Source: Clavaria fumosa (Eukaryota > Basidiomycota > Agaricomycetes > Agaricales > Clavariaceae). Taken from it: DNA of 64,000 nt. Of the stretch, positions 2,422 through 17,328 are shown piece after piece. The notes beneath the pieces were generated by a model, which saw only the letters and a program-made list of their open reading frames with translations, had not been told where the DNA came from and made no database searches. The position numbers and the translations under genes were made by a program. Each line of letters begins with the position of its first letter. Position 1 is the first letter of the stretch. The stretch covers positions 2,604,001-2,668,000 of the forward strand of contig OX637801.1 of NCBI GenBank assembly GCA_951802425.1, given 5' to 3'.

Positions 2422-3112
2422 TGTCACGCCCGTGCCAACAGGAGTATTCTCCGGTCTTCTCCAGCCTTCTCCGGTGGTCTCCAGACCCCTGATTGTAACT
2501 CTGGGCTCTCGGACTTATGTCCAGGGCGCCGGACTTTACTTGCGCAATGTAGCACAGGATCAGGAAGTGTGCCTGAAGGGCCACCAACTGATGTCCACAC
2601 TAGTTGCTGTTGCCTCGGGCAACCAGGAACTGGTCCTGCCCCAGACCCATCGCCCAGACAATTTGATGGACTCCCAGAAACATCTGTACATCATAGTTAG
2701 TAGTTTAACATTTGTCCTGATCAGATTCCATCTCCATCTTGTAGTCCTGTTGTTTAGTTTATTTCCTGACTCCCAGACATTTCTCCGTAGCTACAAACTG
2801 ATTCTGTAGTCGCACCAGAGATATCTCTGTCGCTAGCATCACCCTGGACTTTTGTATAAGTACTCGTAGATTTACGGCTTTGTCTAGCCAGTCTGAATAT
2901 CAACCCCGCTCACTCGCATTCTACTCCTGTATCATCTGAAACCCATCTCCTCTGACTTCCTGAAATCCAAGACACTGATCCGCAGAGGGCGTCGTTTCAA
3001 TACGTTCACCAAGTCCAACTCCGCCTGAACTCCGGATTGCTCCACAGCACCTGGACTTTGTTATTCCCACCCGGACTTTACTCCGCCCGACCCATGCGAC
3101 ATAGACATAACA
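2422..3112 (+). mobile_element. Solo LTR (family B) inserted in the gypsy pol
   Basis: A 691 bp segment begins TGTCACGCCCGTGCC and ends GACATAACA, and is flanked by the 5 bp direct repeat ACACC (2417-2421 and 3113-3117). Removing it with one repeat copy restores the integrase frame across the site (YARH then PIALPDLHL). TG...CA ends plus a 5 bp duplication are the signature of an LTR left after recombination between two LTRs. A TATA-like motif (TTTGTATAAG) lies near 2850. A block with GTCGTTTCAATAC near 2990 is shared with the larger solo LTR at 7119-17328. CTCCGG/CCGGACT words recur throughout. The orientation is inferred from the TATA and the shared 3' block. Confidence 0.88.
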
Positions 3113-3689
3113 ACACCCTATCGCCCTCCCAGACCTACACCTCAGCGAATCAAGCAACCCTGCCACCAATGACTTCCTAAAGAAAGCCTACAAGATGTGA
3201 GAGAAGATGAAGAAATTAGTGGAGCAGTCCAACTGTACGATGGAAAGACATGGTGGATACACAACAGACTGGAAAGAAGGGACCCTAGTATGGTTGGAGA
3301 GCAAGAATCTGGTACTGGAAGACCTACAAAAAAAACTGATGCCAAGGTGAGTCGGACCCCTCAAAGTCATTGCAAAACGAGGCACCGCCGCCTACAAACT
3401 CGAGCTGCCACGACATTGGTGGATACACCCAGTGTTCCACAAATCCCTCCTCACTCTCGCAACTCCCGGTCCCAACCATCCACAACGTCCCGAAAGTATA
3501 GAAATCGATGGCGAGCTGCAGTATGAGGTGGAGTTCATTAGGGAACATAAACAAGGAAGATCAGTGCAGTACCTGGTATGTTGGCTCGGTTACCCCCCAG
3601 AGGACAACACCTGGGAGCCAGCCAAGAACCTCAAGGATGCCCAAGATGTGATATGGGACATTGAGATTGCCCAGAAAGTGCAATCTTAG
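3113..3689 (+). pseudogene. Decayed gypsy pol, 3' part with chromodomain
   Basis: This is the continuation of the interrupted pol. It holds the integrase C-terminal region (GTLVWLESKNL, GPLKVIAKRGTAAYKLELP, HPVFHKSLL) followed by a chromodomain in the open segment 3432-3689 (YEVEFIREHKQGRSVQYLV, then WLGYPPEDNTWEPAKNL). Aromatic residues expected for a methyl-lysine cage are present. Chromodomains on the integrase tail are known from chromoviruses, where they guide integration to heterochromatin. A stop at about 3199 and another near 3348 break the upstream part. The last codon at 3687-3689 is directly followed by a purine run (about 3689-3699), the polypurine tract next to the LTR. Confidence 0.88.
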
Positions 3690-3700
3690 GGGGGAGGTTA

Positions 3701-4274
3701 TGTTATGGTATGTGGTCAGGTGACTACTGTGCTGATGTTACGGGACACACCCGAGACCCCAGACACGTGAACAACAGACCTATGGTCACGTGGCTGGTAA
3801 GCGCCCGATCACCTGACTACTGACCACATGACCAGTACCAAGGGGACAGCCCATTTTCGTGATGGAACATCAACGCAGGATGCCATCATCCTATCGCATC
3901 TTGACACCATCAAGACTAGTCTGAATCTGGTTACTCCCTTGTCTTCCTCGCCTGTTACTGTTGTCCCATCCCCTTGCCACCCTTGTTCCTTTCCCTGACA
4001 TTGTACTATTCCCTCACCTACTGCCACTTCCCTTCTTGTCGCTATCGTGACCACGTGACCATCTCTTTGATACATTCATTCCTCATCTACGGTCATCATT
4101 GTTAGGCTCCCTAGCTGTTACCTTGTACTGTACTGTCACCATACCTCCTATCCCAGTATATATATGAGTAAGTAGATGTCATGTAACCCCCAGACTTGTT
4201 ACTTTCAATACTACCACTCCAGTCCTCCTGCCCAGCTAGCCTGCCCAGGAACTCTGGCAACGATAGTCATAACA
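3701..4274 (+). repeat. 3' LTR of the decayed Ty3/gypsy element
   Basis: The 574 bp segment starts TGTTATG immediately after a GGGGGGAGG polypurine tract and ends CATAACA, the exact inverted complement. A TATA box (AGTATATATATGAG) lies near 4156. The five bases after it (TGATT, 4275-4279) should match the bases before the 5' LTR, which is outside the window. Pyrimidine-rich stretches lie in the middle. No ORF of note is present. Confidence 0.85.
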
Positions 4275-4322
4275 TGATTGTACATTGACTGCTCGAATTG
4301 TTCCATACATTGGCACATTCAC

Positions 4323-5365
4323 CCAGTCAGCCAGAATAGGAATGCCAGTCAAACATTGGCAAACAAAATATGCTAAAAACAAAGACCACAACTTGAAATT
4401 GAGCAGCCCTGTGCCTGGTCCCTCAGGCACAGGTTACCAATCAGGCATAGCTGCTTTTGGTAAGCTGCTATGACCATGGGAAAATTTTTGCACAGCTTGC
4501 AAAATATGACTTTTTATACACCAAAAAATCAGGGAATTCCAAATCTGGACACCCCACATTTGTATCTGCCTTGGTTCAGTGTCAATTTGCAAAATACACA
4601 GAAAATAATTATTTTCCCACAATCCTGCAGTACCCTAGCTTGAAAATTGATAGCTAGAAGATACACACACTACCTGTGGACATATGGGGAGGGTGTGGAT
4701 TAGTTTAATGACCCACCTACCATCTCTGTCACCTCCCTGGAATCTGTTACTAGGAATTAGAGTGTTATTGGCCTGGGAGCATGGCTATTTGTTATATTGC
4801 AAATTCCAGCCATCAGACTACACCTAATACAATCATACAAAAGCCCATAATTTTTGGTGCAGAATTACAGATTCCCCATGTCTATTTTCCCAGATTTCTC
4901 GAAATCTCTCCCCAGACAGTCCCCTTTGTCAAATCACATATTCTTGTCGTCTGATAGCTGACAAGGTATGCATGAATACATGTTCAAAGTTTGGTGAAGT
5001 TAGGCCAAGTTCTCAAGAAGATAGCCCAGAATGTCTCTTTTGGAGGACAGTCTAAAGTGAAGGCAACAACACAGGCATGATTATTTTCTGTGTATTTTGC
5101 AAATTGACACTGAACCAAGGCAGATACAAATGTGGGGTGTCAGATTTGGAATCCCCTGATTTTTTGGTGTATAAAAAGTCATATTTTGCAAGCTGTGCAA
5201 AAATTTTCCCATGGTCATAGCAGCTTACCAAAAGCAGCTATGCCTGATTGGTAACCTGTGCCTGAGGGACCAGGCACAGGGCTGCTCAATTTCAAGTTGT
5301 GGTCTTTGTTTTTAGCATATTTTGTTTGCCAATGTTTGACTGGCATTCCTATTCTGGCTGACTGG
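4323..5365. repeat. Long inverted repeat, 288 bp arms around a 469 bp spacer
   Basis: Bases 4323-4610 are the reverse complement of 5080-5365, with only about one substitution and one single-base indel across the arms. Outer ends are CCAGTCAGCC...GGCTGACTGG. The spacer 4611-5079 is AT-rich and carries no convincing gene. The identical short ORFs on opposite strands of the two arms are just the repeat read twice. The structure could be a foldback or MITE-like DNA transposon, or a recent inverted duplication. I found no target duplication at the ends, so the type is not settled. Confidence 0.85.
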
Positions 5366-5588
5366 CTGAGTGTGGAGGGCAGGCCTGAAAAGGGACATGT
5401 ATTGTAATACATTGCATGGCTATTGTCCACTTTGGGACAAGCACATCACAGTTGTCACAGCAGCTGTATTGTCATGTCTTGCAATACACTTACAGTCATC
5501 TCTTGCAATAGCTATTGATTGTAATTACAATACTCTATTGCAAGGAATTCACATCATTGACTGAAATAAGTGCACAATGGTTGAGAAT
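5366..5588. other. AT-rich stretch without a recognised feature
   Basis: Between the inverted repeat and the minisatellite the sequence is AT-rich, poor in CpG and has no convincing coding potential. It contains several scattered TTGCAATA/TGCAATAC words but no ordered array. Confidence 0.5.
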
Positions 5589-6132
5589 CTTAATATATCA
5601 AATATCAGAGCCTAACAATATATTGGAGATGATGATATGAGGGGTTTCAATATATCAAATATCAGAACCTAACAATATATTGGAGATAATATGAGAGGTT
5701 TCAATATATCAGATATCAGAACCTAACAATATATTGGAGATGATGATATGAGAGATTTCAATATATCAGATTTCAATATATTGGAGATGATATGAGGGGT
5801 TTCAATATATCAAATATCAGAACCTAACAATATATTGGAGATGATATGAGAGGTTTCAATATATCAGATATCAGAACCTAATGATATATTGGAGATGATG
5901 ATATGAGAGATTTCAATATATCAGATATCAATATATTGGAGATGGTATGAGGGGTTTCAATATACCAGATTTCAGAACCTAACAATATATTGGAGATGAT
6001 GATATGAGAGATTTCAATATATCAAATATCAGAACCCAACAATATATTGGAGATGATATGAGAGGTTTCAATATATCAGATATCAGAACCCAACAATATA
6101 TTGGGGATGATATGAGAGGTTTCCATATATTG
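5589..6132. repeat. AT-rich minisatellite, about ten units of 54-57 bp
   Basis: About ten tandem copies of a unit built from TTCAATATATCAGATATC, AGAACCTAACAATATATTG and GAGATGATATGAGAGGT. Unit lengths vary: some carry an extra GAT triplet (57 bp), and two copies (near 5760 and 5925) lack the AGAACCTAAC part and are about 41-42 bp. The unit contains the palindromes AATATATT and GATATC. Predicted ORFs here are only repeat translations. The array is free of CpG. Confidence 0.9.
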
Positions 6133-6209
6133 ATTTCCTCCCCTCTAATCAGACCAATCCATACAACATCCATCACTTCTGATAAGAGTGATTCAATACA
6201 TAAAAATAC

Positions 6210-7118
6210 CTACATGGCCTGACTGTATCCCTTGACCGGTACGCTCCTAGCATCCCCAACTGACACAGTCTGACTGTTTGTATGCTTGTAGGATGCGAAG
6301 AATGACCTATCGCAGAACATATGGGCTGTTGCACCGCAATCGAGGATCACCCTGGCGGCGAGACGTGGTTGCGAAGCCATGTAAATGGTACCGACATCCC
6401 ATACGGTGAGGTCCTGGGACTCGCACATCACTGTGTGTACATGAGTCCTTCTTGGTGAGTGGTTACTCTTCTTCTTGTCATTGTCATGCTCATGAGGTGC
6501 GTTTGGGCATTGATTCTCCCAGTGCCTGGTCTCCTTGCACTTCCAACAGACATCATCGGGTTGCGGGCCACGACCTTGTTTGCCCTTTGCTCAGTCCCCT
6601 CACCCTCCACCTTTCTTGGACTTCGTCGACACCTGAAGTGCAGTCTGGCCCCCACCAGGTTTCTTGCAGATGCGTCAATTCACCTCAGTCTGGAGCTTCG
6701 TGCTCACTATGTCAGAGGTAAGAACCTTTATGTCAAATAGTTGTATCTTAATCATTTCCCAGGACAACATCTTCGGCAGGGACAGTATCATCACATGGGC
6801 GATGTGAAGGTCGGCAACTGCCTCACCAGCCTGAATTATGTGGTCTCGGATGTCAAGGATGGCTGCAATGTGGTCAGCCATCAGCACCCTGTCGACATAC
6901 TTTCACGTGTATAGTTCCTCGAAGAAGTAGTGTATATTGATTAACTGTTGGTTCATCTGATGAACTTGTTTCCACATATCCCACATCTCCTTCGACATTT
7001 CGCAGTGGGTAATGTGTGGCCACTGCGTCTCATCCATTGCACTGTGCATCAAGCCTTGTGTGGTGCCATTGCGAGTCACCCAGTCAAGGTGCTTGCAAAG
7101 TCTCATGCGATCTTCATT
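6210..7118 (-). pseudogene. Decayed Ty1/copia gag-protease, 3' part
   Basis: On the minus strand the copia Gag (UBN2-type) continues from the split site at 7118: NEDRMRLCKHLDW, GLMHSAMDETQWPHI, then VDRVLMADHIAAIL. A zinc knuckle follows at about 6545-6500 (CWKCKETRHWENQC). After it comes a copia-type retropepsin start with ILDCGATAHMFCD near 6350, where DCGA replaces the usual DSGA. The frame carries TGA stops (for example near 6893) where arginine or tryptophan is expected, plus stops before the knuckle. Integrase, RT and RNase H are absent, so the element is truncated at about 6210, next to the minisatellite. The 5' part of gag is at 17334-17495. Confidence 0.85.
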
Positions 7119-7915
7119 TGTCACGTCCGTGCCGCTCCCTTCGGGTCCGGACCGGAAACACCATCTCCGGTCCCGGACTTCTTATCTCCGACTCCCATCT
7201 CCGGCACCCGACTTCAGATCTCCGGCACCCGACTCCCATCTCTGGACCCCGACTTCTGATCTCCGGACCCGGATCTCCGAACTCCTGCTCTGGTGCCTCA
7301 GTATCTGAGGGTACCTGCCCCGCATGTGGGGCAGGCACCAAACCCACCTTCGGGGATAGTTCCCCAAGAGGCTGTCCTGACCCCGATCCCGATTCCCAAT
7401 CCCAATCCCGATCTCTGATTCCCGAACCCGACTTCCCGATGGTCGTGAACCGACGTCTGTAGTTACTCCACCAGCAACAAACTCCGCACGTGGAAACCGG
7501 ACAATCCACGCAGTTGCTTGGCAGTGTAGCTACCAACCTGATGGTAGTAATGTCCAACTCCGGGATCAGGAAACTGATCCCCATTGCTGTTCCATTGCTC
7601 TGTTGCAATTCCCATTGTCCTGTAGTAAGTCCCGCAGTGTATCTCCGGGACATTCTCCATAGCTACTGTCAATACTCCGGGTTGCTGGAAATGCCCTGGA
7701 CTTGTAGTATATATACCTACCCACTTCGTAGAGTATTCTGCAGTCCGGATACCACCTTCATACTGTACAACCTCATCCATCCCTCCATACCTCTGCACCC
7801 TGTACCTGTATCCCATCTGACCCCCATCTCCTGTCCCTCCATCTATCTCCGCACTTCTGTCCTTTCTGCCCACCACCTTGTAATTTGTATCATGTCTAAT
7901 CTGACCCTTGCCTTC
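7119..7915 (+). mobile_element. Solo LTR (family A), left part
   Basis: Left 797 bp of a solo LTR that begins TGTCACGTCCGTGCC. The right part is 16846-17328, ending CACGTAACA. The flanking 5 bp direct repeat is TCATT (7114-7118 and 17329-17333), and removing the insert rejoins the copia gag frame (ALSN-EDRMRL). It is rich in CTCCGG, CCGGACT and CCCGAC words. A TATA (GTATATATACC) sits near 7708. The start and end match the 691 bp solo LTR at 2422-3112, so both belong to one family although this copy is 1,280 bp. The last five bases (7911-7915, CCTTC) are the target duplication of the gypsy element inserted here. Confidence 0.85.
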
Positions 7916-8140
7916 TGTAAGGCTATAGGCCTTTTCTATTCTTTTATTACATAATATACATACCATAATAGTCTACTAGCATAGCCGCTTAGGCTATGCT
8001 TACCTCAGCGGCCCCTAGAGGGCCGCTCGCCTATATATATCGCGTCGCGACTGTACAGAGAGGGTAGATCCCTCTACATAGAACTACCATACTCAATATA
8101 CAGTTGAGTCCAGTTCTTTTGAGGGATAGAAAGTATTACA
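7916..8140 (+). repeat. 5' LTR of the 8.9 kb gypsy element
   Basis: 225 bp, TGTAA...TTACA. It contains strong hairpins at 7978-8000 (9 bp stem) and 8007-8027 (8 bp stem), a TATA run at 8032-8040 that would start transcription about 25-30 bp downstream, and a further hairpin near 8060. It differs from the 3' LTR at five sites, all transitions. Three of them (in CAGCGG, CTCGCC and ATCGCG) are CpG here and TpG or CpA in the 3' copy. No AATAAA signal was seen. Confidence 0.95.
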
Positions 8141-8178
8141 ACTTTTTTGAACCTTCAACACAATGAGTGTGGCTAGAA
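8141..8178 (+). other. Leader between 5' LTR and gag, possible primer-binding region
   Basis: The sequence right after the LTR (ACTTTTTTGAACC...) does not start with the TGG expected of a tRNA 3'-end primer site. The word TTGAACC could pair with a tRNA T-arm (GGTTCAA), or priming could be by a tRNA fragment or by self-priming, as known for Tf1-type elements. None of these can be decided here. An ATG at 8163-8165 opens a different frame of 32 codons and would be an upstream ORF if gag starts at 8179. Confidence 0.4.
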
Positions 8179-10836
8179 ATGGGTTACACCTGTATAGCCG
8201 TGCAGAAGAAGCACAACAGGAAGGGAGGAGAAACTCCTCCCTTGGTAGGACCTCTGCATGACACAGGCGTTGCGCAGCCAGAGGGAATAGGACCCTCTGT
8301 CGAGCCCAGCGGTGAACCCCTGCTAAGGGCTGACGTGGCGTCACCGGCCCCTGATGACGGCGTTAGGTCCGAAACGCCGTCGACACGTGGCAATCGCCAC
8401 AAGGAGGGCGCCACAACGCGCCAAGTCACTGGCAAGGCGCCATCGTTCGAGAAGGCCGGACCTTCAAAAGGAAAGGGCAGAGAGCCCTTAGAAACCCGCG
8501 AGAAGTGGCTGCGAGAGCAGTCAAGCTCGCGGGCTCCCTCCAATAGTGGAAATGAGCCCACAGCGATAGCGCGAGCTAACGCTGTAGCCGAGAGACTCTC
8601 GGACATTCAGGCGGAACTTTCCCACCAGGACGAAGAGTTTGAGGCTCTTGTAAGGGCGATGAAAAATCGCCAAGCCACTATTCAGCAACGGCTAAGTGAG
8701 GAGGCTACCCACATTAGGCGGGTGTTGGACTCGCTAGATGAGCAGGGAACCGCACTAGCGGCTCCCTTACGGCGGCCACGCCGTGATTCATTGGAACCCA
8801 AAGGGGGGCCTGCCCCGCCGAGTCAGGCACCAGCCGACTGCGAGGAAGGGTGGCGAAGGGAGAACCGCGCAGACGGTTCTCGAACCCCTGGCGAACCAGG
8901 AATGGAGGGCAGCAGCCCTCGAGAAACAGCGGGGCCGGAGCCGCGGCTTATGTCGTGCTACCCACAGCTGGGTCAGCGAGAGCCAACGGGCCGGATGGGC
9001 CCGTTCGGATGGATGGAACCGCCCCAGAAGGAGTGGGAGATTACTCGGGAGGTGTCCCCAAGTTCTACAAACTACCAGAGCGATGTATTACATTGCTACC
9101 TTGTGATGATACAAGATAAAACCTCGCTATTGCCTGAGGCAATAGCTGAGATTAGGGGGATTAAGATTGACCCCCCTGAGCTTTATGACAGACGAGACGA
9201 CCTCATCGTCTGGGAAAGGTGGCTCGATGGCCTCCTTAATTACTTCTACTTCTATAGAGTAGTCGGCCTGCAGTTGGAGCACCAACGCGTTATGCTAGCG
9301 GGGTCATGCTTAAGTGGAATAGCCGCTACTTTGTATACCCAAGAAGTAACGGGTCTATCCCATGCTCCTCGAAGGTCCACCTTCGAGGAATTGATAACTG
9401 CTATGTTTAAGCGGTTCCTGACCGAGGTAATGGCCCAGAAGGCAGTGGATGCCTTCTATCAGGTGAAGTTTACAAAGGCGAAGGGCGCCTTGGGATTCTG
9501 GAACGAATTGGCCCAGGCGGCGGAGAGAATGCTCACCCTGCCTGAGGCCGGTATGATGAAAAGGCAGTTCCTTAACGGACTGCCTAATGAGATGGTGGAG
9601 GCCATCTTCAAAACTCGCGCGATTAGCGTCAAGTTATCCTCAGTTGAGGATATTATCGATGCTAGTCACCAAGTGGAAGTGACCCTCCACTACCTCCAGC
9701 AGCGGAGGGCAGTGCCTTCGGTAGGGAACCAGGCAGGTCCCAAAGGAAACCCGCCTACAGGCAGAGTGCCTGTAGGGCAGAGGTTTGTGAGACTGCGGCC
9801 GTATCGGCCGCACACAGACCGGAGGCCAGGGGAACCTGTTCCCCTGCGGATCGACCGCGTCCAAACCGGAGGAAGCAAACCCCGGCTAGAACTGCCTAAG
9901 GCGGTGCCCAAGATTGGGGTGCGAGGCAGAGAGGAGCGGAAAGCTCCTCTAACATGCTATATGTGTGGGAAAGCAGGGCACTACGCGAATGTGTGCCCTC
10001 AGTCACAGCGAAAGCCAGAGGCTTTTAGGGGAAATGTAAGGAACTATGCCTTACAAGAGGAGCTGGGCGAGTCGGAGCCCAAGGAACCACTGGAAACACC
10101 TGCGGTTGAAAGCGTGGAGCCGGAGGGTGAAGCCCTACCGGAGGAAGTCGCGGAAGATGACTACACTGGTCGCGGGGACCAGTACGATTCAGACGAGCTC
10201 TTCGTCCTTGAAGAGCTCGAGGAGGAGGCAGAAAGCGACCAGGTCGCTGGAATCCGGGAATTGGAAGAGGACGAGGTCCTCTACACGGCAGAAGTACATG
10301 TCGGCCATGTCGACGACAGGCCGTTTCGGGTGCACATCTGGAAGGAGCGGACGGGATCGTGCCCGGTAGTGTCAAAGGAGGCTAGGCAATGCCTCACGGC
10401 CTATATCACCGTGAATGGTGTAAAAGCGTATACGCTTTTCGATTCTGGAAGTACCCCGGACCTGATGAGCCTGGACTTTGCCCAGGTGACAAAGGTACCA
10501 ACCTTCCAACTGGATAATCCAGTTCCTATCCAACTCGGCTGTATCGGCAGCCGATCGACGATTACACGCAGATGCCGCGTAGCGGTAGATTTGGGAGGAA
10601 TACTGGTGGAGGACCAGTATTTTGATATAGTGAACATCAATTGCTATGATATCATAGTCGGAACGGTGTTCATGTATGACCGCCGTGTGATACTGGATGT
10701 GCACCGACGGGCAATCCGGATTGGCGAAGGGAAGGGGAAAACCCTTCAGGCGATGTCGCCCAGTGAGGAGACGGAAGCATTACGCGTCTGTATAACGGCT
10801 AAGAACGCGCCGAGGAAGGAAGCTCGAAAGAGCTGA
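8179..10836 (+). CDS. Gag-protease of the 8.9 kb gypsy element
   Basis: The open frame extends from 8167, but the first ATG in it is 8179, giving 885 codons up to TGA at 10834-10836. The N-terminal 250 residues are charged and low in complexity with a coiled-coil-like stretch (about 130-190). A capsid-like helical region covers about 310-500. A CCHC zinc knuckle (CYMCGKAGHYANVC) starts near residue 593. An acidic linker follows. The retropepsin motif LFDSGS is near residue 755, with a typical C-terminal half (DIIVGTVFMYDRR). The product would form the particle shell and mature it. The frame continues through the TGA into pol without a shift, and the bases TGA CTA match the best-known leaky stop context. 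An upstream ATG at 8163 in another frame makes the start uncertain. Confidence 0.85.
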   Translation: MGYTCIAVQKKHNRKGGETPPLVGPLHDTGVAQPEGIGPSVEPSGEPLLRADVASPAPDDGVRSETPSTRGNRHKEGATTRQVTGKAPSFEKAGPSKGKGREPLETREKWLREQSSSRAPSNSGNEPTAIARANAVAERLSDIQAELSHQDEEFEALVRAMKNRQATIQQRLSEEATHIRRVLDSLDEQGTALAAPLRRPRRDSLEPKGGPAPPSQAPADCEEGWRRENRADGSRTPGEPGMEGSSPRETAGPEPRLMSCYPQLGQREPTGRMGPFGWMEPPQKEWEITREVSPSSTNYQSDVLHCYLVMIQDKTSLLPEAIAEIRGIKIDPPELYDRRDDLIVWERWLDGLLNYFYFYRVVGLQLEHQRVMLAGSCLSGIAATLYTQEVTGLSHAPRRSTFEELITAMFKRFLTEVMAQKAVDAFYQVKFTKAKGALGFWNELAQAAERMLTLPEAGMMKRQFLNGLPNEMVEAIFKTRAISVKLSSVEDIIDASHQVEVTLHYLQQRRAVPSVGNQAGPKGNPPTGRVPVGQRFVRLRPYRPHTDRRPGEPVPLRIDRVQTGGSKPRLELPKAVPKIGVRGREERKAPLTCYMCGKAGHYANVCPQSQRKPEAFRGNVRNYALQEELGESEPKEPLETPAVESVEPEGEALPEEVAEDDYTGRGDQYDSDELFVLEELEEEAESDQVAGIRELEEDEVLYTAEVHVGHVDDRPFRVHIWKERTGSCPVVSKEARQCLTAYITVNGVKAYTLFDSGSTPDLMSLDFAQVTKVPTFQLDNPVPIQLGCIGSRSTITRRCRVAVDLGGILVEDQYFDIVNINCYDIIVGTVFMYDRRVILDVHRRAIRIGEGKGKTLQAMSPSEETEALRVCITAKNAPRKEARKS

Positions 10837-13773
10837 CTACACTCGGGCCCCCGGGATGCGGGTGAGCCCTGGAAGGGGGGAGAGGCTAACGCCTCTGTAA
10901 AGATAGACGACGCCTACCTCGAAGGCAGGCGTGAGTACTGGTTTAACCAGTACGCTGAGCTCTTTGGGGGAGTTCCCCCCAGGCCACCGCCATTTCGGGC
11001 GGTGAACCACCGCATACCCTTAATAGACGAAAAGCAAGTCTATAATTATTACCTGCCTCAGTGTGCTGAGGCATTTAAGGAACAATTCCTTGAGAAAGTG
11101 AACCGTTATATTACTAACGGTTGGTGGGAGGCAGGAGCGGCATCGCAAGCAGCTCCTATGTTATGCATACCAAAAAGCAGCCAGAACCCGCTGCTACGGA
11201 CAGTCGTAGACTGTCGGAAATGGAATGCGAACACAGTACGGGATATTACCCCGTTGCCTGATCAGGACCAGATCAGGCAGGACGTGGCTAGAGCCGCGTG
11301 TAGGTCAAAGATTGACCTATCAGACGTGTACGAGCAAGTACGCATAGAGCCTGAGGACGTGTGGAAGACGGTGTTCGCGACCGTCTTGGGCACCATGTTC
11401 TCACAGGTGATGCAGATAGGGGATTGTAATGCCCCTGCTACCTTCCAGTGCCTGATGACACACATATTTCATCATCAATTAGGAAAGTATGTGCATGTGT
11501 ACTTAGACAATGTATTCATCTTCTCCAAGACCTTGGAGGACCATGAGCATCACTTAAAGATGGTCTTTGAGACCCTCAAAGGCGCGAGCCTTTTCTTGAG
11601 CAAGAAGAAGTGCTTGTTATACGTGAAGAGCGTAGATTGCTTAGGGCATATTATAGATGCCCGAGGAATCCATGTCACAGTGGATAAAATGGATAAAATC
11701 CGTAACTGGAAAACGCTGACAAGCGTTAACAAGGTGCAGAGGTTCCTCGGATTAGTACAGTACATCGGACAGTTCATGCCCGATCTGTCCGCTTACACTG
11801 GCCCTTTGGCTAGTCTGTGTAGTGAAACGCGAACGTTTCACTGGAGACCACTCCATGACAAGTGCATGGAGATGATTAAGGCATTGGCATGTAAAATGCC
11901 AATATTACGCCTGGTAGACGCGGCAGTACAGGAGCCAATCTGGCTTGTGTGCGACGCATCAGTGTCGGGCATAGGGGCCATGTATGGCCAAGGAAAGACA
12001 TGGGAAACCTGCCATCCAGCAGGGTTTATGTCTAAAAGGTTCAGCCCGGCCCAGTTTAGTTACAAAACCTGGGACTGGGAGGCCTTAGCGATTGTCGAAT
12101 CACTACAGAAATGGGAGGATAAACTCCTCAGTAGACGAATCAACGTGGTCACAGACCACGAAGCGCTGGGGTTCTTTAAGAACCAAATGTGCTTGTCTGG
12201 CCGGCAGGCCAGGTGGATGGAATATATGGAGAGGTTTGACTACTCCATCACTTACATTAAAGGCGAGAGCAACAAAGTTGCGGATGGCCTTTCGCATTAC
12301 CATATGAGTGACGCGACAGATGAGATTCATCCAGATCACGAGTACGTGAAGGCGGACGTTCGCCTTGAACCTGAAGGGGATGAGTTGCCCCGCGGACGCC
12401 TGGAGGAGGTGCGCGCACTACAAGTACGCACACCTGCCACGGACCAGGAGACCAAGCAGGAGCAACCACCGCCTGTGCCCCAAGCGGACGGGGAGGTGAG
12501 GGACGAGATGCTTGTGCCCTTAAGGCCCCGCGTGGAAGGGGGGGATAGCAGGATGCTGCAAAGCATCCGTGACAGCTATGAACAGGATCGCCTGTTCAAA
12601 ATAATTCTGGAGAAACCGGGAAACTACACCGGTTTTAAGATCAGGGATGACCTGATCTTCGCTGAGAATAAAAAGGGAGACGAGGTGCTCTGCATGCCTC
12701 GTACCCTTCATGAAGGGAAAAGCATCCCTGGGAGAATAATCCAGGAAGCCCATGCAGTCCTAGGACACATGGGGTCGCAGATAACGATGGATTACGTCCG
12801 CCGTTACTACTGGTGGCCATCAGTGTCTAAAGACATTGATAAGTTTTGCTCGTCGTGCGGCGTGTGCCAGACAAGCAAGACTTCCCCTCAGAAGCCACAA
12901 GGGCTTCTACACACCCTTCCGATCCCCAGGCGGCCCTGGGAATCAATAGGAATGGACTTCGTAGGTCCATTTCCTATGTCGAAAGAGGCGGACTACCTCT
13001 GGGTGGTGATCTGCCGCCTCACTTCACTGGTACACCTAGTACCAGTTACCGTTTCGGTAACGGCAGCAGAGCTAGCCTGGCTCTTCCTAACCCATGTAGT
13101 GAGACTGCATGGGTTGCCAGGATCGATTGTGTCCGATCGTGATCCGAGATTTACGTCTGCCTTTTGGCAGGAAACACACCGACTACTCGGTGTCAAGCTG
13201 CGGATGTCCACAGCTTTCCATCCGCAGACGGATGGAGCGATGGAACGGTCGATCCGATCCGTGTCTCAGATCCTCCGATCTGTGGTCCAACCGGACCAGA
13301 CAGACTGGGCGGAGCGAATCCCAATGGTCGAGTTCGCCATTAATGCGTCAATAAGCGCGTCGACGGGGTTTGCCCCGTTTGAGCTCACCTATGGGTACAT
13401 GCCCCAGATGATGGCAGAGTTGCCAGATGACCTCCGGGCAGTGCCCAGAGGGGTACGGATGTTCATGGAGAAAGCCGCACTCAACCTTGCAATGGTGCAC
13501 GACGCGATTATAGAAAGTTGCGTCCACCAGACGTTTTACGCTAACCAGCATAGATGGGCAGAGCACCCATTTAGAGAGGGAGAATTAGTCTACCTCTCAA
13601 TGGAGAACTTAAATCTCCCTAAAAAACGAGCTAGAAAGCTCATGCTGAAGTTTATTGGGCCATACCCAATATGGTCGTGTAGACTGGAATCGTCTACATA
13701 CGAGCTGGAGCTCCCCGACTCGCTAAAGTCGAGGAGAATCCATCTGACGTTCCATGTCAGCCAGTTGCGGTGA
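10837..13773 (+). CDS. Pol of the 8.9 kb gypsy element: RT, RNase H, integrase
   Basis: Same frame as gag-protease and with no ATG near its beginning (first internal ATG at about 11158), so it should be made as a Gag-Pol fusion. RT motifs include RTVVDCRKWN and the fingers/palm region. The active site at 11500-11511 reads YLDN, where the second aspartate of YxDD is expected. RNase H has VCDAS (11950), WEALAI and TDHEAL. The integrase has an HHCC zinc region (GHMG...CSSCGVC) and a DD35E core: Asp at 12955, Asp at 13135 and Glu at 13243. The GPY-like tail ends HLTFHVSQLR before TGA at 13771-13773. The catalytic substitution suggests this copy is inactive in cis, unless the family naturally carries it. 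Confidence 0.88.
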   Translation, partial: LHSGPRDAGEPWKGGEANASVKIDDAYLEGRREYWFNQYAELFGGVPPRPPPFRAVNHRIPLIDEKQVYNYYLPQCAEAFKEQFLEKVNRYITNGWWEAGAASQAAPMLCIPKSSQNPLLRTVVDCRKWNANTVRDITPLPDQDQIRQDVARAACRSKIDLSDVYEQVRIEPEDVWKTVFATVLGTMFSQVMQIGDCNAPATFQCLMTHIFHHQLGKYVHVYLDNVFIFSKTLEDHEHHLKMVFETLKGASLFLSKKKCLLYVKSVDCLGHIIDARGIHVTVDKMDKIRNWKTLTSVNKVQRFLGLVQYIGQFMPDLSAYTGPLASLCSETRTFHWRPLHDKCMEMIKALACKMPILRLVDAAVQEPIWLVCDASVSGIGAMYGQGKTWETCHPAGFMSKRFSPAQFSYKTWDWEALAIVESLQKWEDKLLSRRINVVTDHEALGFFKNQMCLSGRQARWMEYMERFDYSITYIKGESNKVADGLSHYHMSDATDEIHPDHEYVKADVRLEPEGDELPRGRLEEVRALQVRTPATDQETKQEQPPPVPQADGEVRDEMLVPLRPRVEGGDSRMLQSIRDSYEQDRLFKIILEKPGNYTGFKIRDDLIFAENKKGDEVLCMPRTLHEGKSIPGRIIQEAHAVLGHMGSQITMDYVRRYYWWPSVSKDIDKFCSSCGVCQTSKTSPQKPQGLLHTLPIPRRPWESIGMDFVGPFPMSKEADYLWVVICRLTSLVHLVPVTVSVTAAELAWLFLTHVVRLHGLPGSIVSDRDPRFTSAFWQETHRLLGVKLRMSTAFHPQTDGAMERSIRSVSQILRSVVQPDQTDWAERIPMVEFAINASISASTGFAPFELTYGYMPQMMAELPDDLRAVPRGVRMFMEKAALNLAMVHDAIIESCVHQTFYANQHRWAEHPFREGELVYLSMENLNLPKKRARKLMLKFIGPYPIWSCRLESSTYELELPDSLKSRRIHLTFHVSQLR

Positions 13774-14070
13774 CATGAACCAAACGACGACGCGTTGTTT
13801 CCATGTCGTGAAGTGAAAGTCTTTTATGACTTTGGTGTGGATCCAAAGGAGGAATGGCTAGTAGACGCCATTATTGGCCATAGGTGGGAAGGCCGCCACC
13901 TGGAATGCAAGGTTCGATGGAACCTTGGGGATACGACCTGGGAGCCATACATGGGGGTCAAAGAGCTGGCTGCTCTAGACCATTACCTTGAACTACAAGG
14001 TGTAGACTCATGGAGGGCGCTACCTAGGCACCCTCGAGCAGAGCGCGGACGGAGCGCCTGTGCGGAGTAG
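13774..14070 (+). pseudogene. Chromodomain tail of pol, separated by an in-frame TGA
   Basis: It continues in the pol frame directly after TGA 13771-13773 to a TAG at 14068-14070. The fold signature is EEWLVDAIIGHRW, HLECKVRWNLGDTTWEP and KELAALDHYLE, a chromodomain as in chromoviruses, where it binds methylated histone H3. There is no nearby ATG, so it is either cut off in this copy (TGA in place of a CGA arginine codon, a CpG transition) or reached by readthrough. The stop context TGA CAT is not the classical leaky one. Confidence 0.75.
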
Positions 14071-14203
14071 TAAACGCGATCGAGCCAGACCACTGGGTCG
14101 TTAGCCACAGTGATTAAGTCACGTGGTGGCTCCACCATAAGGTACAAAACCTTAAGAGGGCCCGCCCTCTTTTTCTCTTTTTCTTCATCAGCCATTTGTT
14201 ACA
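14071..14203 (+). other. Spacer before the extra ORF, with a splice-acceptor-like tract
   Basis: 133 bp between the pol frame and the extra ORF. It has a hairpin at 14154-14171 (8 bp stem, 2 nt loop). A long pyrimidine run (about 14164-14187) follows and ends in CATCAG at 14191, an excellent 3' splice site sequence, 12 bases before the ATG at 14204. This suggests the downstream ORF may be translated from a spliced RNA, as retroviral env is. The donor was not identified. Confidence 0.45.
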
Positions 14204-15304
14204 ATGGATGATCCGATGGGGGAAACCCCATCTCCTCGCGCTACCCGTGCCGCCACCGTCCCTGGCCTCGCGCCAGGGAACTTGCTGCCGACGAGCATCG
14301 TCGGAACGGCTGGGTTGTCCCAGCCGTTGTTGTCGCAAGGGGAGGAAACTCTCCCCTGGGTCCAGGATCGCATGATCCATGCGATCACCCACGGATCCCT
14401 GTGCACTCAGTGTATCGGATTCCGTCGTCACATCTTCGAGTCACTGCTGCACTCGGACGAAGCGTTTCAACAAATGCTTAAGGAAGCGCAGGAAAGCGCT
14501 AGGCGTGAGCTCGAGCCGGAGCTCGGAATGATACAGCGCAAGTTGGATGACTTGCATGAAGAGTATGAGAGGGGCAATGCCCTTTGTGCCGGGCACCGGC
14601 AAAAGCTTGAAAAAGCTTACAATAGCCTGGATAAGGTCGAGGCCAACCTTAGAAAGGCGAAGGAGAAGGTTCTCTCCTTGACAGAAAAGTTGGCAAGCGC
14701 CAACGAGGAGCTCGCCGCAGTGCGAATGGTGGCGAAAGGGAAGGGACCTGACAGGGATCCCTCGGAGCGGGACCCTAAAAGGGCCCGCACTGCTGTCTCA
14801 TACGCGGACATAGCGCCGCCTATGGGGGACGTGGACATCCCCATGAACATTGAGGAGGGGTATCCCCCTCTTCCACCTGCTGGTGTTAGCCAGCAGAACC
14901 CCGATGCCTCACTGAGGCATAAACAAACGTTTGCGGAGATGGTGCTTGTGCCTCTGACAAAGGGTTATCCCTTTAATGCCCCCCGCCCGGACAGGGCTCC
15001 AGATGGCTATCCCTGGCCATTGGGGATGTCCGTCAAGCCCGGTGCGTGGGCTGTCGAGTTGAAGACGGTTGAGGAGGTGATAGCCCTCAACCAGCAGGCG
15101 CATCATGGAGCGCCTGACGGCAGTTATGATATGACTGCCGTAATGAAGATGCGATGGGCCATTAAGGAGGCCCAGAAGAACGCGGCAGTGGGAAAGCTGC
15201 CTACGCCAGTTGAGGACTGGCTGTTGAGGAACTGGAGAGTTCCTGCCGGCGTCGAGAAATCGGCAGACCGGGTGGCACGCCATCTGCAGGGGCAGATGTT
15301 GTGA
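14204..15304 (+). CDS. Extra ORF of the gypsy element, part a (unrecognised, coiled coil)
   Basis: 366 codons from ATG 14204 to TGA 15302-15304. I do not recognise a known domain. The N-terminal 60 residues are Pro/Ser/Thr-rich. Residues about 65-175 are strongly helical with heptad-like leucines (LLHSDEAFQQMLKEAQES, then KLDDLHEEYERGN, VLSLTEKLASANEELAAV), predicting a coiled coil. A basic patch (DPKRARTAVSYADIA) follows, and the C-terminal 150 residues look globular (AVELKTVEEVIALNQQAHH, VEDWLLRNWRVP). It has no signal peptide or membrane segment, so it is not an envelope protein. It lies in sense downstream of pol. The frame continues through the TGA into part b, so the two may be halves of one 704-codon protein. 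Confidence 0.7.
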   Translation: MDDPMGETPSPRATRAATVPGLAPGNLLPTSIVGTAGLSQPLLSQGEETLPWVQDRMIHAITHGSLCTQCIGFRRHIFESLLHSDEAFQQMLKEAQESARRELEPELGMIQRKLDDLHEEYERGNALCAGHRQKLEKAYNSLDKVEANLRKAKEKVLSLTEKLASANEELAAVRMVAKGKGPDRDPSERDPKRARTAVSYADIAPPMGDVDIPMNIEEGYPPLPPAGVSQQNPDASLRHKQTFAEMVLVPLTKGYPFNAPRPDRAPDGYPWPLGMSVKPGAWAVELKTVEEVIALNQQAHHGAPDGSYDMTAVMKMRWAIKEAQKNAAVGKLPTPVEDWLLRNWRVPAGVEKSADRVARHLQGQML

Positions 15305-16318
15305 GAGAGTGGAGGGATGGGCAACCCATCCCTGAGGGCAGGACCCTTGGAAGTCACAGGAGGGGGAGCACCCTCCTATCTGTTGTACCAGACATTGCCG
15401 CTGACAGCGGCAAGAGTGGTTGCGCCTCCCATTAGGGAGTTTGTAGAGACCGGGGAGCCGTTGCTCCCCCAAGAGCTGTGGCTCTCCTTTGTAGGGGAGA
15501 AGGGAGAAATTCCCCCTATGAACCCGAAAGGCGACAGAGGCGCAGTGTCAGACCTGCGCTGTTGGGCTGCCGACATAAGGATGGGCAGAGCGGCCGTCCT
15601 TGGTATTGATAAGGACAGGGACTCACCCCTGTCCTTTGCACGCAAGGTGGCCATTTGGCGTACCATAATGGTGTGCGCACCGTCCCGGGCCCGAATGCAG
15701 CGCCCGTTCCTAGCTATGGCTGTAGCCCTCTTTGTGTCAAAGGGGGCATACGCGCAGGCCATTAAAGGGAGAGTCCTCCCTGCACAATGTTCCAGGCACT
15801 GGAACACAAAGATAACACCAACCGTCGCGCAGACGATTGAGGCGTTTGTAGACGCCGGAGTCTCCGTTGGGGAAACGGAGCTCTGGGACGAATTTGTACT
15901 CACGTGGGCATGCGAGTACGTGCAAAAGGGGAATGCCCCCTTGGATGATGATATCCAGCTAGCGCTGGGTGAAAGGGAGAAGCCTCCCGTACTGCCCCGG
16001 ACATATGCACTGCTAGAGTGCATAGGGCGCGGGGCACGTCCGTGCCGTCTTCGATTAAGCGAGAAGGCGGGAGACGAACGGAGGGGCGATGCGCCCCTTG
16101 AAGATGGTGGAAGCACGTCCACCGTTAGGAACCCCCTAGGGCTACCTATTGGGGGTTTAACAATATCCCAGACAGAGGGTGCGGGGCCCTCTCAAAAACA
16201 AAAGAAAGCGGCTAAGTCATCAGCCGCTAAGGCCACGAAGAGGCCTGTTGTGTCGTCGCCCGACTGGAGCAACGACGAGGGCGAGCCACCGTGCGACTAC
16301 GAGCAGGGCTCAGACTAA
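15305..16318 (+). CDS. Extra ORF of the gypsy element, part b (unrecognised)
   Basis: In frame with part a and with an ATG at 15317, 12 bases after the TGA, so either re-initiation or a former single ORF is possible. From that ATG there are 333 codons. The central region (about residues 25-240) looks like one globular domain with VREFVETGEPLLPQELW-like text, AADIRMGRAAVLG, AFVDAGVSVGETELWDEF and LTWACEYVQKG. The tail is charged with a basic, nuclear-signal-like stretch (KQKKAAKSSAAKATKRP) and an acidic end. I know of no named family for it. A 9 bp hairpin (15313-15333) covers the ATG. It ends 298 bp before the 3' LTR. Confidence 0.65.
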   Translation, partial: ESGGMGNPSLRAGPLEVTGGGAPSYLLYQTLPLTAARVVAPPIREFVETGEPLLPQELWLSFVGEKGEIPPMNPKGDRGAVSDLRCWAADIRMGRAAVLGIDKDRDSPLSFARKVAIWRTIMVCAPSRARMQRPFLAMAVALFVSKGAYAQAIKGRVLPAQCSRHWNTKITPTVAQTIEAFVDAGVSVGETELWDEFVLTWACEYVQKGNAPLDDDIQLALGEREKPPVLPRTYALLECIGRGARPCRLRLSEKAGDERRGDAPLEDGGSTSTVRNPLGLPIGGLTISQTEGAGPSQKQKKAAKSSAAKATKRPVVSSPDWSNDEGEPPCDYEQGSD

Positions 16319-16603
16319 GCGTCCGAGCTCTTTAAAAACATATGCCTACCCCGCAGGACGAGACAGCGGCACTTGGGGCACCCCCCACCAGGGCGTGCCA
16401 CTCGTGACACACTGTCCAACTGGGGGCAGGTCGCGCAGACCACCAGGTAGGACCCATCAGCACCAGGCGAAGGCCCCAGGAGGGGATCGCACCCTGTGAC
16501 ATGGCGGTAACCTTGCCCAAGGGGATGCGCCCTTTGTAACATTATTCTACTTCTGCTCGTCATCCCGCGCTGCCCGCGCGTTGCCTCTGGTTGGGGCCTC
16601 TCC
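16319..16603 (+). other. 3' noncoding segment of the gypsy element
   Basis: It lies between the extra ORF and the polypurine tract, and no sense ORF of note is present. On the minus strand an 82-codon ORF (16563-16315) encodes two CxxC pairs (CATC and CPKC) about 20 residues apart, but there is no other evidence that it is used. Hairpins seem sparser here than in the rest of the element. Confidence 0.5.
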
Positions 16604-16615
16604 GGAGGGGGAGGG
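16604..16615 (+). other. Polypurine tract
   Basis: GGAGGGGGAGGG directly abuts the 3' LTR. In LTR elements this RNase H-resistant run primes plus-strand DNA synthesis. Confidence 0.85.
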
Positions 16616-16840
16616 TGTAAGGCTATAGGCCTTTTCTATTCTTTTATTACATAATATACATACCATAATAGTCTACTAGCATAGCCGCTTAGGCTATGCT
16701 TACCTCAGTGGCCCCTAGAGGGCCGCTCACCTATATATATCGTGTCGCGACTGTACAGAGAGGGTAGATCCCTCTACATAGAACTACCATACTCAATATA
16801 CAGTTGAGTCTGGTTCTTTTGAGGGATAGAAAGTATTACA
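16616..16840 (+). repeat. 3' LTR of the 8.9 kb gypsy element
   Basis: 225 bp, the same ends as the 5' LTR. It differs by C/T or G/A at five sites, three of them CpG in the 5' copy and TpG or CpA here. The first of these changes weakens the hairpin stem that corresponds to 8007-8027. It is followed by the target duplication CCTTC (16841-16845). Confidence 0.95.
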
Positions 16841-16845
16841 CCTTC

Positions 16846-17328
16846 TGTCTCATATGCCAGCTGCGCTAAGTCCGACCTACTCCTGACCAACTCCTAACTG
16901 ACCCCCGGAATCTGTCCCTGACAACTGCACAAACCTCCTGACCTCTGGAACTCACCCACAAACTCCAGAACTCATCTCCGAACCCCGGAACTCCGTATCC
17001 CTCCCCCAACCCGACTCCTGTCCCTGCTCCTAGTCACTTGTTAAACCCGAACTCCATCTGAACTCCGTCTCCACCCTCCTGTCCATCCCTCGTCTCGAAT
17101 ATGGTCAAGTCCCACCCGGACTTCTCGCCTGAGGACCGGACCCGAGATCCCGAATCCCATAACTCTGAAATATGGGACACCCAGGACCCAGGAAGGGTGT
17201 CGTTTCAATACATTCGCCAAAGTCCCATCCGAACCCCGAAGTCCACTCCTGGACATTCCGGACATCCTGGACCCGAACTCCAAACTCCGACCGGACTTCA
17301 CCCCGACCCTCCGAGCACGCACGTAACA
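16846..17328 (+). mobile_element. Solo LTR (family A), right part
   Basis: Right 483 bp of the 1,280 bp solo LTR split by the gypsy element. It contains the GTCGTTTCAATACATTCGCCA-type block near 17197, also present near the end of the family B copy, and many ACTCC/CCGGA words. It ends CACGTAACA, followed by the TCATT duplication (17329-17333). Confidence 0.85.

Follow-up and report, generated by a model that had tools for sequence, protein, structure and literature searches.

Dense local hairpins along the coding sequence of a Ty3/gypsy LTR retrotransposon in Clavaria fumosa

In RNA viruses with genome-scale ordered RNA structure, the folding energy of the coding region is below that of shuffled sequence. 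In the mitochondrial genes of Nematomorpha, 110 perfect inverted repeats of at least 15 bp have been described in four mtDNAs, averaging 43 bp with a spacing of 37 bp; the portion of that report available mentions no surplus of imperfect repeats and states that inverted repeats longer than 65 bp avoid the 3-3 codon register (PMC6649704). The RNA of the yeast elements Ty1 and Ty3 is described, in the accessible part of its source, as a mosaic of stable structured regions (up to 30%) and A-rich sequence (PMC11381356).

The stretch analysed here (64,000 nucleotides, hereafter the window) contains at 7916-16840 a Ty3/gypsy LTR retrotransposon whose family has at least 40 copies in the genome. Its features are as follows.

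7911-7915 and 16841-16845, 5-bp target-site duplication CCTTC flanking both LTRs
7916..8140, + strand, 5' LTR with TG...CA ends
~8032-8041, + strand, TATA-like stretch in the 5' LTR
8167..10836, + strand, gag-protease frame, stop to stop, with RVP_2, ending in TGA
10837..13773, + strand, pol frame with RT, RNase H, integrase and a Tf2-1-like SH3
14156..16318, + strand, extra ORF, N half coiled-coil-like
16319..16615, + strand, 3' segment of 297 nt without hairpins, with the purine-rich tract GGAGGGGGAGGG at its end
16616..16840, + strand, 3' LTR

The assignment to Ty3/gypsy is supported by the paired LTRs, their TG...CA ends and the target-site duplication, and with the order gag-PR-RT-RH-IN, protease lying in the first frame and RT, RNase H and integrase following in order in the second. 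Gag itself was identified solely from its position and a weak CCHC knuckle (E 0.0012, just below the curated cut-off). Gag and pol share one reading frame, and the TGA at 10834 is kept in 18 of 18 covered copies. The stop at 15302 that splits the extra ORF in the window copy is shared by one of 18 covered copies; ORF3b has just four protein relatives, which give no clue to function. No TGG was found directly after the 5' LTR in a primer-binding-site search, no complement of 7-14 nt starting within the first 12 nt past the 5' LTR in a self-priming search of 7916-8300, and no match to known RNA families in 7800-17000.

A preliminary description had claimed that the whole element is saturated with short perfect hairpins, and the saturation was upheld against both dinucleotide and codon-preserving shuffles. 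Perfect stems with loops of 3-10 nt were counted across the element against dinucleotide shuffles. Stems of at least 6 bp numbered 138, vs 14.9±3.8 in 60 shuffles (maximum 25); the corresponding counts were 77 vs 3.8 for at least 7 bp, 39 vs 0.8±0.9 (maximum 3) for at least 8 bp and 6 vs 0.1 for at least 10 bp. With 100 codon-preserving shuffles per ORF, loops of 2-12 nt and stems of at least 8 bp, the counts were 13 vs 0.62 in gag-pr, 13 vs 0.81 in pol, 5 vs 0.33 in ORF3a and 4 vs 0.20 in ORF3b. Non-overlapping stems of at least 6 bp with loops of 0-10 nt numbered 135. The excess was highest at loop sizes of 3-6 nt and mostly gone by ~20 nt. Loop sequence was somewhat enriched in A (.324, vs.250 for the element) and depleted in C (.183 vs.253). 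Loops of 3-6 nt lie in the range favourable for hairpins.

All 21 hairpins reported in the preliminary description were recovered with exact coordinates, stem and loop, two of them being extendable inwards. They are marked "reported" in the following catalogue, which gives stem/loop and carries no strand.

7978..8000, hairpin 9/5, 5' LTR, reported
8007..8027, hairpin 8/5, 5' LTR, reported
8221..8243, hairpin 10/3, reported
8356..8381, hairpin 9/8
8860..8881, hairpin 8/6, reported
8985..9005, hairpin 8/5, reported
9126..9146, hairpin 10/1 (9/3), reported
9366..9389, hairpin 11/2 (10/4), reported
9437..9457, hairpin 8/5, reported
9635..9652, hairpin 8/2
9754..9776, hairpin 10/3, reported
9794..9812, hairpin 8/3, reported
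9827..9846, hairpin 9/2
9930..9950, hairpin 8/5
10194..10219, hairpin 10/6
10422..10439, palindrome 9/0
10508..10524, hairpin 8/1
10599..10621, hairpin 9/5
10935..10953, hairpin 9/1
11054..11073, hairpin 8/4
11101..11122, hairpin 8/6, reported
11255..11279, hairpin 9/7
11301..11319, hairpin 8/3, reported
11365..11387, hairpin 8/7
11821..11842, hairpin 9/4, reported
11883..11903, hairpin 8/5, reported
12579..12598, hairpin 8/4
12637..12659, hairpin 9/5
13026..13046, hairpin 8/5, reported
13217..13236, hairpin 8/4
13908..13927, hairpin 8/4
14154..14171, hairpin 8/2, reported
14259..14279, hairpin 8/5
14305..14328, hairpin 10/4, reported
14366..14386, hairpin 9/3, reported
14904..14920, hairpin 8/1
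15067..15092, hairpin 8/10
15117..15141, hairpin 8/9
15313..15333, hairpin 9/3, reported
15395..15413, hairpin 9/1
15611..15636, hairpin 10/6, reported
15788..15806, hairpin 8/3, reported
16004..16024, hairpin 8/5
16678..16700, hairpin 9/5, 3' LTR counterpart of 7978-8000

Most of the element is covered, but not its entirety as first described, because 16319-16615 holds no stem of at least 6 bp; its fold z was +0.46 (4 windows). The element folds below matched shuffles, as in genome-scale ordered RNA structure, with a mean z of -2.76 in sense (147 windows, 65% of them below -2) and -2.61 in antisense, compared with 0.27 in the older gypsy (1-3689) and -0.09 elsewhere in the window. In the older gypsy at 1-3689, which the preliminary description had set apart from the element along with the host genes, stems were at chance (6 vs 5.8). 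In 16841-64000, stems of at least 6 bp were near chance (90 vs 79.7) and those of at least 8 bp numbered 9 vs 4.2±1.6 (z 2.9; 15 shuffles). The bin 4001-8000, which contains only 85 bp of the element, also exceeded chance (23 vs 7.8). Between 4001 and 7915, the 11 listed stems of at least 7 bp comprise four inside a repeat that has mirrored ends, two belonging to a 54-bp tandem array, one next to a different array and four standing alone.

Hairpin enrichment was found in all 10 partial relatives of the element and in L033 (z 7.2 to 18.7). Four other gypsy pols were examined, namely 1-3689 and three controls whose domains follow the gypsy order and whose DNA does not match the element; three lacked the trait and one control, L043, showed it weakly (z 3.8). 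Among the pols examined in the genome, the trait is confined to the element's lineage. No pol relatives were confirmed in viral and genome contig collections. Chance, base composition or an artefact of the first reading has nothing in its favour beyond the stems expected from composition and is already refuted, being contradicted by both kinds of shuffle and by the control elements.

The coding sequence is shaped at the residue as well as the codon level. The number of hairpins that the window proteins permit exceeds that of their residue-shuffled versions by a factor of 1.4 to 2.0, vs 1.05±0.23 for 18 E. coli proteins. For pol the value was 2.94 vs 1.49 after shuffling (z 6.8), and its bias ranked first of the 125 sequences scanned; z was 5.7 for gag-pr, 2.9 for ORF3a and 1.7 for ORF3b. 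The element's proteins are bent towards hairpin-compatible sequence. Stems use the three codon registers evenly (42/41/39). Codons within stems show no loss of conservation (.576 vs.551), and in 43 hairpins the residues encoded by one arm are as conserved as those encoded by the other (difference 0.215 vs a null of 0.245±0.029).

When the two main families were compared, base pairs in hairpins changed at one half to one quarter of the frequency seen in matched chance stems. The share of changed pairs was 4.6-8.5% in hairpins vs 17-19% in long-loop chance stems across six directed comparisons, which set the window or L012 against L033 and the window against L031 (Fisher p between 1e-3 and 5e-8, each pair counted as independent). 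Considering all 16 directed comparisons, which overlap, p was below 0.05 in 14; from L036 to the window there was no difference (.040 vs.042). Compensatory change did not exceed the decoy level: between the window and L033, non-CpG compensatory changes affected 2/520 and 0/428 hairpin pairs vs 5/363 and 4/523 in decoys. In the same comparison, changes per stem were Poisson-like, no stem had three or more non-CpG changes (0/83 and 0/70), and clustered multi-base changes matching the opposite arm were not found. One-mismatch stems showed no preference for G-U (26) over A-C (31). As a strand test this ratio was dropped; it was inconsistent (G-U 18 and A-C 3 from L033 to the window, 8 and 17 in the opposite direction), and mismatches in phage MS2 are themselves symmetric (15 vs 13). 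Simple sense-RNA selection would predict G-U to be favoured over A-C, a preference that is not consistently seen.

Within the family, decay after insertion falls mostly at CpG, regardless of stems. CpG-capable sites vary about equally whether or not they lie in stems, and the frequency of private non-CpG variants is.027 in stems vs.031 outside. The alignment of sister copies, suggested earlier as a check for paired change, gave 61 Watson-Crick doubles among 62 double changes in 20 copies; every one of the 61 falls on a CpG-on-CpG pair and, being recurrent CpG decay, was rejected as covariation. Shared variants appeared depleted when stems were defined on the window (16/1711 vs 136/5488, p 4e-5), also at third positions (7/498 vs 80/1505), and none of 2975 circular shifts was as low. 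The ratio of 0.38 nevertheless reflects ascertainment in part: long-loop decoys gave 0.33-1.04 (pooled 30/1619; real vs decoy p 0.026), and with stems defined in the second family shared variation in the first was not reduced (27/1145 vs 84/3716, ratio 1.04). The depletion is accordingly treated as unproved, and constraint on stems within the family is not established.

We favour, at about even probability, the reading that prolonged selection in favour of closely packed, local Watson-Crick hairpins has shaped the coding sequence of this lineage. The earlier suggestion of selection for an ordered fold is supported by the retention between families, the negative fold z and the hairpin-bent proteins; covariation and within-family constraint do not bear it out. 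The selective pressure would act during replication of the lineage and end at insertion, after which copies would decay irrespective of stems. Both the genomic RNA and the complementary strand, whether antisense RNA or minus-strand cDNA, would fold locally at once, and because of this immediate folding both may stay compact and be poor at forming long duplexes or accepting small RNAs. Near-perfect stems carry G-U and A-C mismatches about equally often, which suggests that folding matters for both strands or else that G-U is already too weak a pair.

Alternatively, quasi-palindromes could have been sites of template switching, in reverse transcription or in replication, that perfected the arms in an ancestor, leaving functionless hairpins that are slowly lost. 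We consider this possible but doubtful. Most stems are perfect, the mismatched excess is mainly G-U and A-C in similar amounts, as transition decay predicts, the even registers look as if nucleotides rather than codons had been shaped, and compensatory change is nearly absent; a similar process is discussed as a possible mechanism for the hairworm mitochondrial palindromes in the part of that report available (PMC6649704). Ongoing arm conversion would, however, be expected to produce paired doubles, of which there are almost none, and the Poisson-like changes, the better retention than in chance stems, the equal conservation of the residues encoded by the two arms, with stem codons no less conserved, and the exemption of the final 297 nt before the 3' LTR also argue against it. 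The preliminary proposal that template switching perfects the palindromes is thus unsupported for the period covered, with no multi-base arm rewrites and equally conserved arms; an older burst may have preceded that period.

It is improbable that the hairpins serve as numerous weak sites through which Gag or nucleocapsid would act in packaging or assembly. Their even spread over the coding regions and LTR, the weakly scoring CCHC knuckle in gag and the somewhat A-rich, C-poor loops would fit such dispersed sites, but a shared loop motif was not evident by eye among the listed loops and the density far exceeds that of MS2. Less probable still is a role or process on the chromosome involving cruciforms or single-stranded DNA hairpins. 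Folding and mismatches are strand-symmetric, as this would suggest, but mutations after insertion ignore stems, so no upkeep is seen in chromosomal copies, and neither the control gypsy pols nor the greater part of the window has such hairpins.

Under the selection reading, a stronger version, to which we attach a rather low probability, is a double code in which nearly all coding sequence would also specify short perfect hairpins on both strands, even at the cost of bending the proteins; RNA and complementary strand would each fold back on themselves and thereby evade duplex formation and targeting by small RNAs. A description of such a putative both-strand folding strategy for LTR elements was not found in the open-licence literature, nor was one of a hairpin-saturated LTR element, the latter in agreement with the earlier statement that no LTR element with such hairpins has been described. 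If true, this would be an extreme case of a protein code and a nucleic-acid fold in one sequence. At least 40 copies are there to be compared, and RNA structure and small RNAs could be measured in the fungal host. The element would thus allow tests of whether folding serves mobile elements as a defence against silencing, and of whether selection or copying gives rise to perfect coding palindromes, including those of hairworm mitochondria.

Among Agaricomycetes Ty3/gypsy elements, 12 aligned pol relatives (including Phanerochaete, Trametes and Mycena) are 51-65% identical and share the pol domains and Tf2-1-like SH3; unlike the element, such relatives, compared as proteins alone, average little hairpin bias (1.24±0.22, n=124 including four ORF3b relatives), with a few up to 1.9. 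With Ty1 and Ty3 of yeast the element shares a structured LTR-retrotransposon genomic RNA, here predicted, and with Ty3 the superfamily, whereas saturation by perfect hairpins is not described for Ty1/Ty3 RNA in the accessible part of the source (PMC11381356). With 114 perfect 7-bp stems in 8.9 kb, the element is more densely packed than phage MS2, which has 9 in 3.6 kb. The nearest analogues are the ordered viral RNAs and the hairworm mitochondrial coding palindromes. As in the former, folding energy is below shuffles along the coding region, but the hairpins are short, perfect and strand-symmetric and lie in an LTR retrotransposon. Compared with the latter, as far as the available text describes them (PMC6649704), the element has stems of 6-11 bp, loops mostly of 3-6 nt, imperfect stems, even registers and a nuclear LTR element as carrier; common to both are many perfect inverted repeats in functional genes, with arms coding conserved residues.

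The element at 7916–16840 is a Ty3/gypsy retrotransposon both by its order of domains and by its LTRs, and is organized as follows:

7916–16840, whole element: LTRs of 225 bp each, ends TG...CA, target duplication CCTTC
8167–10836, first frame (gag-pr): protease and a weak CCHC knuckle, then TGA
10837–13773, pol, after the TGA: RT, RNase H, integrase and a Tf2-1-like SH3
14156–16318, extra ORF (halves ORF3a and ORF3b): N half coiled-coil-like

At 8141–8165, directly after the 5' LTR, a TGG-type primer-binding site was absent and a self-complement was not found. Gag and pol share one frame with the TGA between them, and the sequence at 10834–10842, TGACTACAC, did not vary in any of the 18 copies or the 10 relatives that cover it. 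Because UGA-CUA is a context in which stop codons are read through, readthrough may yield gag-pol; hairpins are present downstream of this TGA. The extra ORF of the window copy is divided by a stop at 15302–15304, found also in one of the 18 other covered copies.

The preliminary description had named 21 short perfect hairpins in the element, all of which were recovered with the same coordinates and sizes, and its central observation proved even stronger than claimed. With loops of 3–10 nt, the element contains 138 stems of at least 6 bp and 39 of at least 8 bp; 60 dinucleotide shuffles gave 14.9±3.8 and 0.8±0.9 (maximum 3), respectively. When synonymous codons were shuffled inside each reading frame, the 8-bp stems likewise exceeded the controls in gag-pr (13 vs 0.62), pol (13 vs 0.81) and the halves of the extra ORF (5 vs 0.33 and 4 vs 0.20). 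The excess peaks at loops of 3–6 nt, and the loops are rich in A and poor in C. RNA folding in 120-nt windows gave a mean z of −2.76 (sense) and −2.61 (antisense) for the element, 0.27 and −0.05 for the older gypsy pol at 1–3689, and −0.09 and 0.14 for the rest of the window. Saturation of the entire element, as originally described, applies to most of it but not to 16319–16615, where there are no stems of 6 bp and the fold z is +0.46 (4 windows). Almost wholly outside the element, bin 4001–8000 is moderately stem-rich (23 vs 7.8 shuffled), a surplus traced to a mirrored-end repeat, tandem arrays and a few lone stems. Mirror-image hairpins (4408–4433/5255–5280 and 4486–4504/5184–5202) lie at the two ends of 4408–5280, suggesting an inverted-repeat element of ~870 bp, and 5592–6130 comprises about ten 54-bp tandem units with palindromes containing ATATAT.

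Across 48.8 Mb of the genome (17 contigs), at least 40 places, the window included, match window 11500–12500 at 93–100% (40 scored of 150 candidates); copy comparisons rest on 20 other copies (L009–L028). A second family (L029–L033) is about 82–85% identical to the element, and ten partial pol relatives (L034–L040 and L044–L046) show 86–95% identity where aligned. Stems of at least 6 bp were enriched in all ten and in L033 (z 7.2 to 18.7). At least 17 places from the second-family search match the query at 99–100% with one internal deletion in common, several lying no more than tens of kb from a contig end; L033 is free of that deletion and strongly CpG-depleted (0.12). As described, the older gypsy at 1–3689 is unlike the element, its stem count being at chance. 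The control pols L041–L043, three of 150 RT places listed and picked for long open frames, show the gypsy arrangement of RT, RNase H and integrase and have no DNA match to the element (L041 and L043 are 71–78% alike in parts). Two were at chance and L043 was weakly enriched (13 vs 5.0, z 3.8), so the statement that other gypsy families lack the trait stands on four cases.

The element's proteins are themselves bent towards hairpin-compatible sequence. With residues fixed and codons random, 7-bp stems per 1000 residues were 2.94 for the window pol against 1.49±0.21 for residue-shuffled protein, and 2.44 against 1.41 for gag-pr; the bias was less clear in the extra ORF halves (z 2.9 and 1.7). 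Hairpin ratios were 1.05±0.23 on average in 18 E. coli proteins (top 1.61) and 1.07–1.26 in L041–L043. The window pol ranked first among 125 sequences, the others being 120 relatives of pol and 4 of ORF3b; the relatives averaged 1.24±0.22, topped by the pol proteins P0056 (1.92) and P0026 (1.85), whose DNA may share the trait. Pol relatives named among the matches listed were from Phanerochaete, Trametes and Mycena, which makes an agaricomycete the probable host. The match to 12 chosen relatives was.576 at stem codons and.551 at other codons.

Stems were not seen to be maintained once copies had inserted. Variation among L009–L028 is chiefly C-to-T and G-to-A at CpG, with transitions far exceeding transversions; such heavy decay of CpG to TpG/CpA is expected of CpG-methylated repeats. 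Paired LTRs of 15 copies showed substitutions at 71 of 3420 columns. Decay was blind to stems, CpG-capable sites varying similarly inside and outside them (single.297 vs.265, shared.547 vs.570), as did private non-CpG variants (.0273 vs.0307). Sister copies, proposed earlier as a covariation check, gave 61 paired double changes, which are ruled out as covariation because every one is CpG-on-CpG.

For the replicating lineage, variants in at least two copies were depleted from window-defined stems (ratio 0.38, or 0.26 at third positions). Long-loop chance stems of the same sequence also gave ratios mostly below 1 (0.73, 0.33, 0.75 and 1.04), from which the window-defined stems differ modestly (p=0.026), and second-family-defined stems showed no depletion of shared variants (ratio 1.04; 18/848 vs 25/843 in decoys). 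Constraint within the family is therefore unproved. The between-family test is stronger, since its decoys, chance stems with loops of 25–400 nt, carry the same ascertainment. Changed pairs made up 6.5% of hairpins and 18.5% of chance stems from the window to L033 (6.3 and 18.0% in reverse), and 8.5 and 18.9% from the window to L031 (4.6 and 19.1% in reverse). The difference reached p<0.05 in 14 of 16 directed comparisons, which overlap in sequences and for which Fisher's test takes pairs as independent; L033 to L045 (p=.084) and L036 to the window (p=1.0) showed no significant difference. Where both families are fixed, non-CpG differences amounted to.020–.039 in stems and.083–.085 elsewhere (no decoys). 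Compensatory changes between families were nearly absent (2/520 and 0/428; decoys 5/363 and 4/523). Between-family constraint shows as reduced change, not covariation.

Two causes proposed in the preliminary description may be weighed against these results. If a copying process had perfected palindromes by copying one arm from the other, arms would be expected to differ in conservation and changes to cluster. Among 43 hairpins in pol, the conservation difference between arms was no larger than in random placements; changes per stem between the window and L033 were Poisson-like, and no stem had three or more (0/83 and 0/70). This argues against ongoing palindrome making, and leaves an older burst unaffected. 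Selection over the long term for a genome predicted to fold on itself is the likeliest cause. Near-perfect stems carry G-U and A-C mismatches about equally, in the family and the window copy alike. G-U exceeded A-C from L033 to the window (18 vs 3, p=.0015) but did not dominate from the window to L033 (8 vs 17, p=.11), and the first unpaired position beyond stems leans to G-U (28 vs 15, p=.066). A fold useful on both strands is suggested only tentatively.

Codon registers across stems are even (42, 41 and 39), in which the element differs from the long hairworm palindromes (PMC6649704). In its working the element may be likened to ordered viral RNA genomes; membership among them is not claimed, because compensatory change was not found and the fold is a computed one. 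Phage MS2 is likewise symmetric for G-U and A-C. Counted as perfect 7-bp stems with loops of 3–8, E. coli 16S and 23S rRNA had 2 (1.5 shuffled), the pooled L041–L043 pols 12 (4.7 shuffled) and MS2 (3.6 kb) 9 (1.1 shuffled), against 114 in the element (3.4 shuffled).
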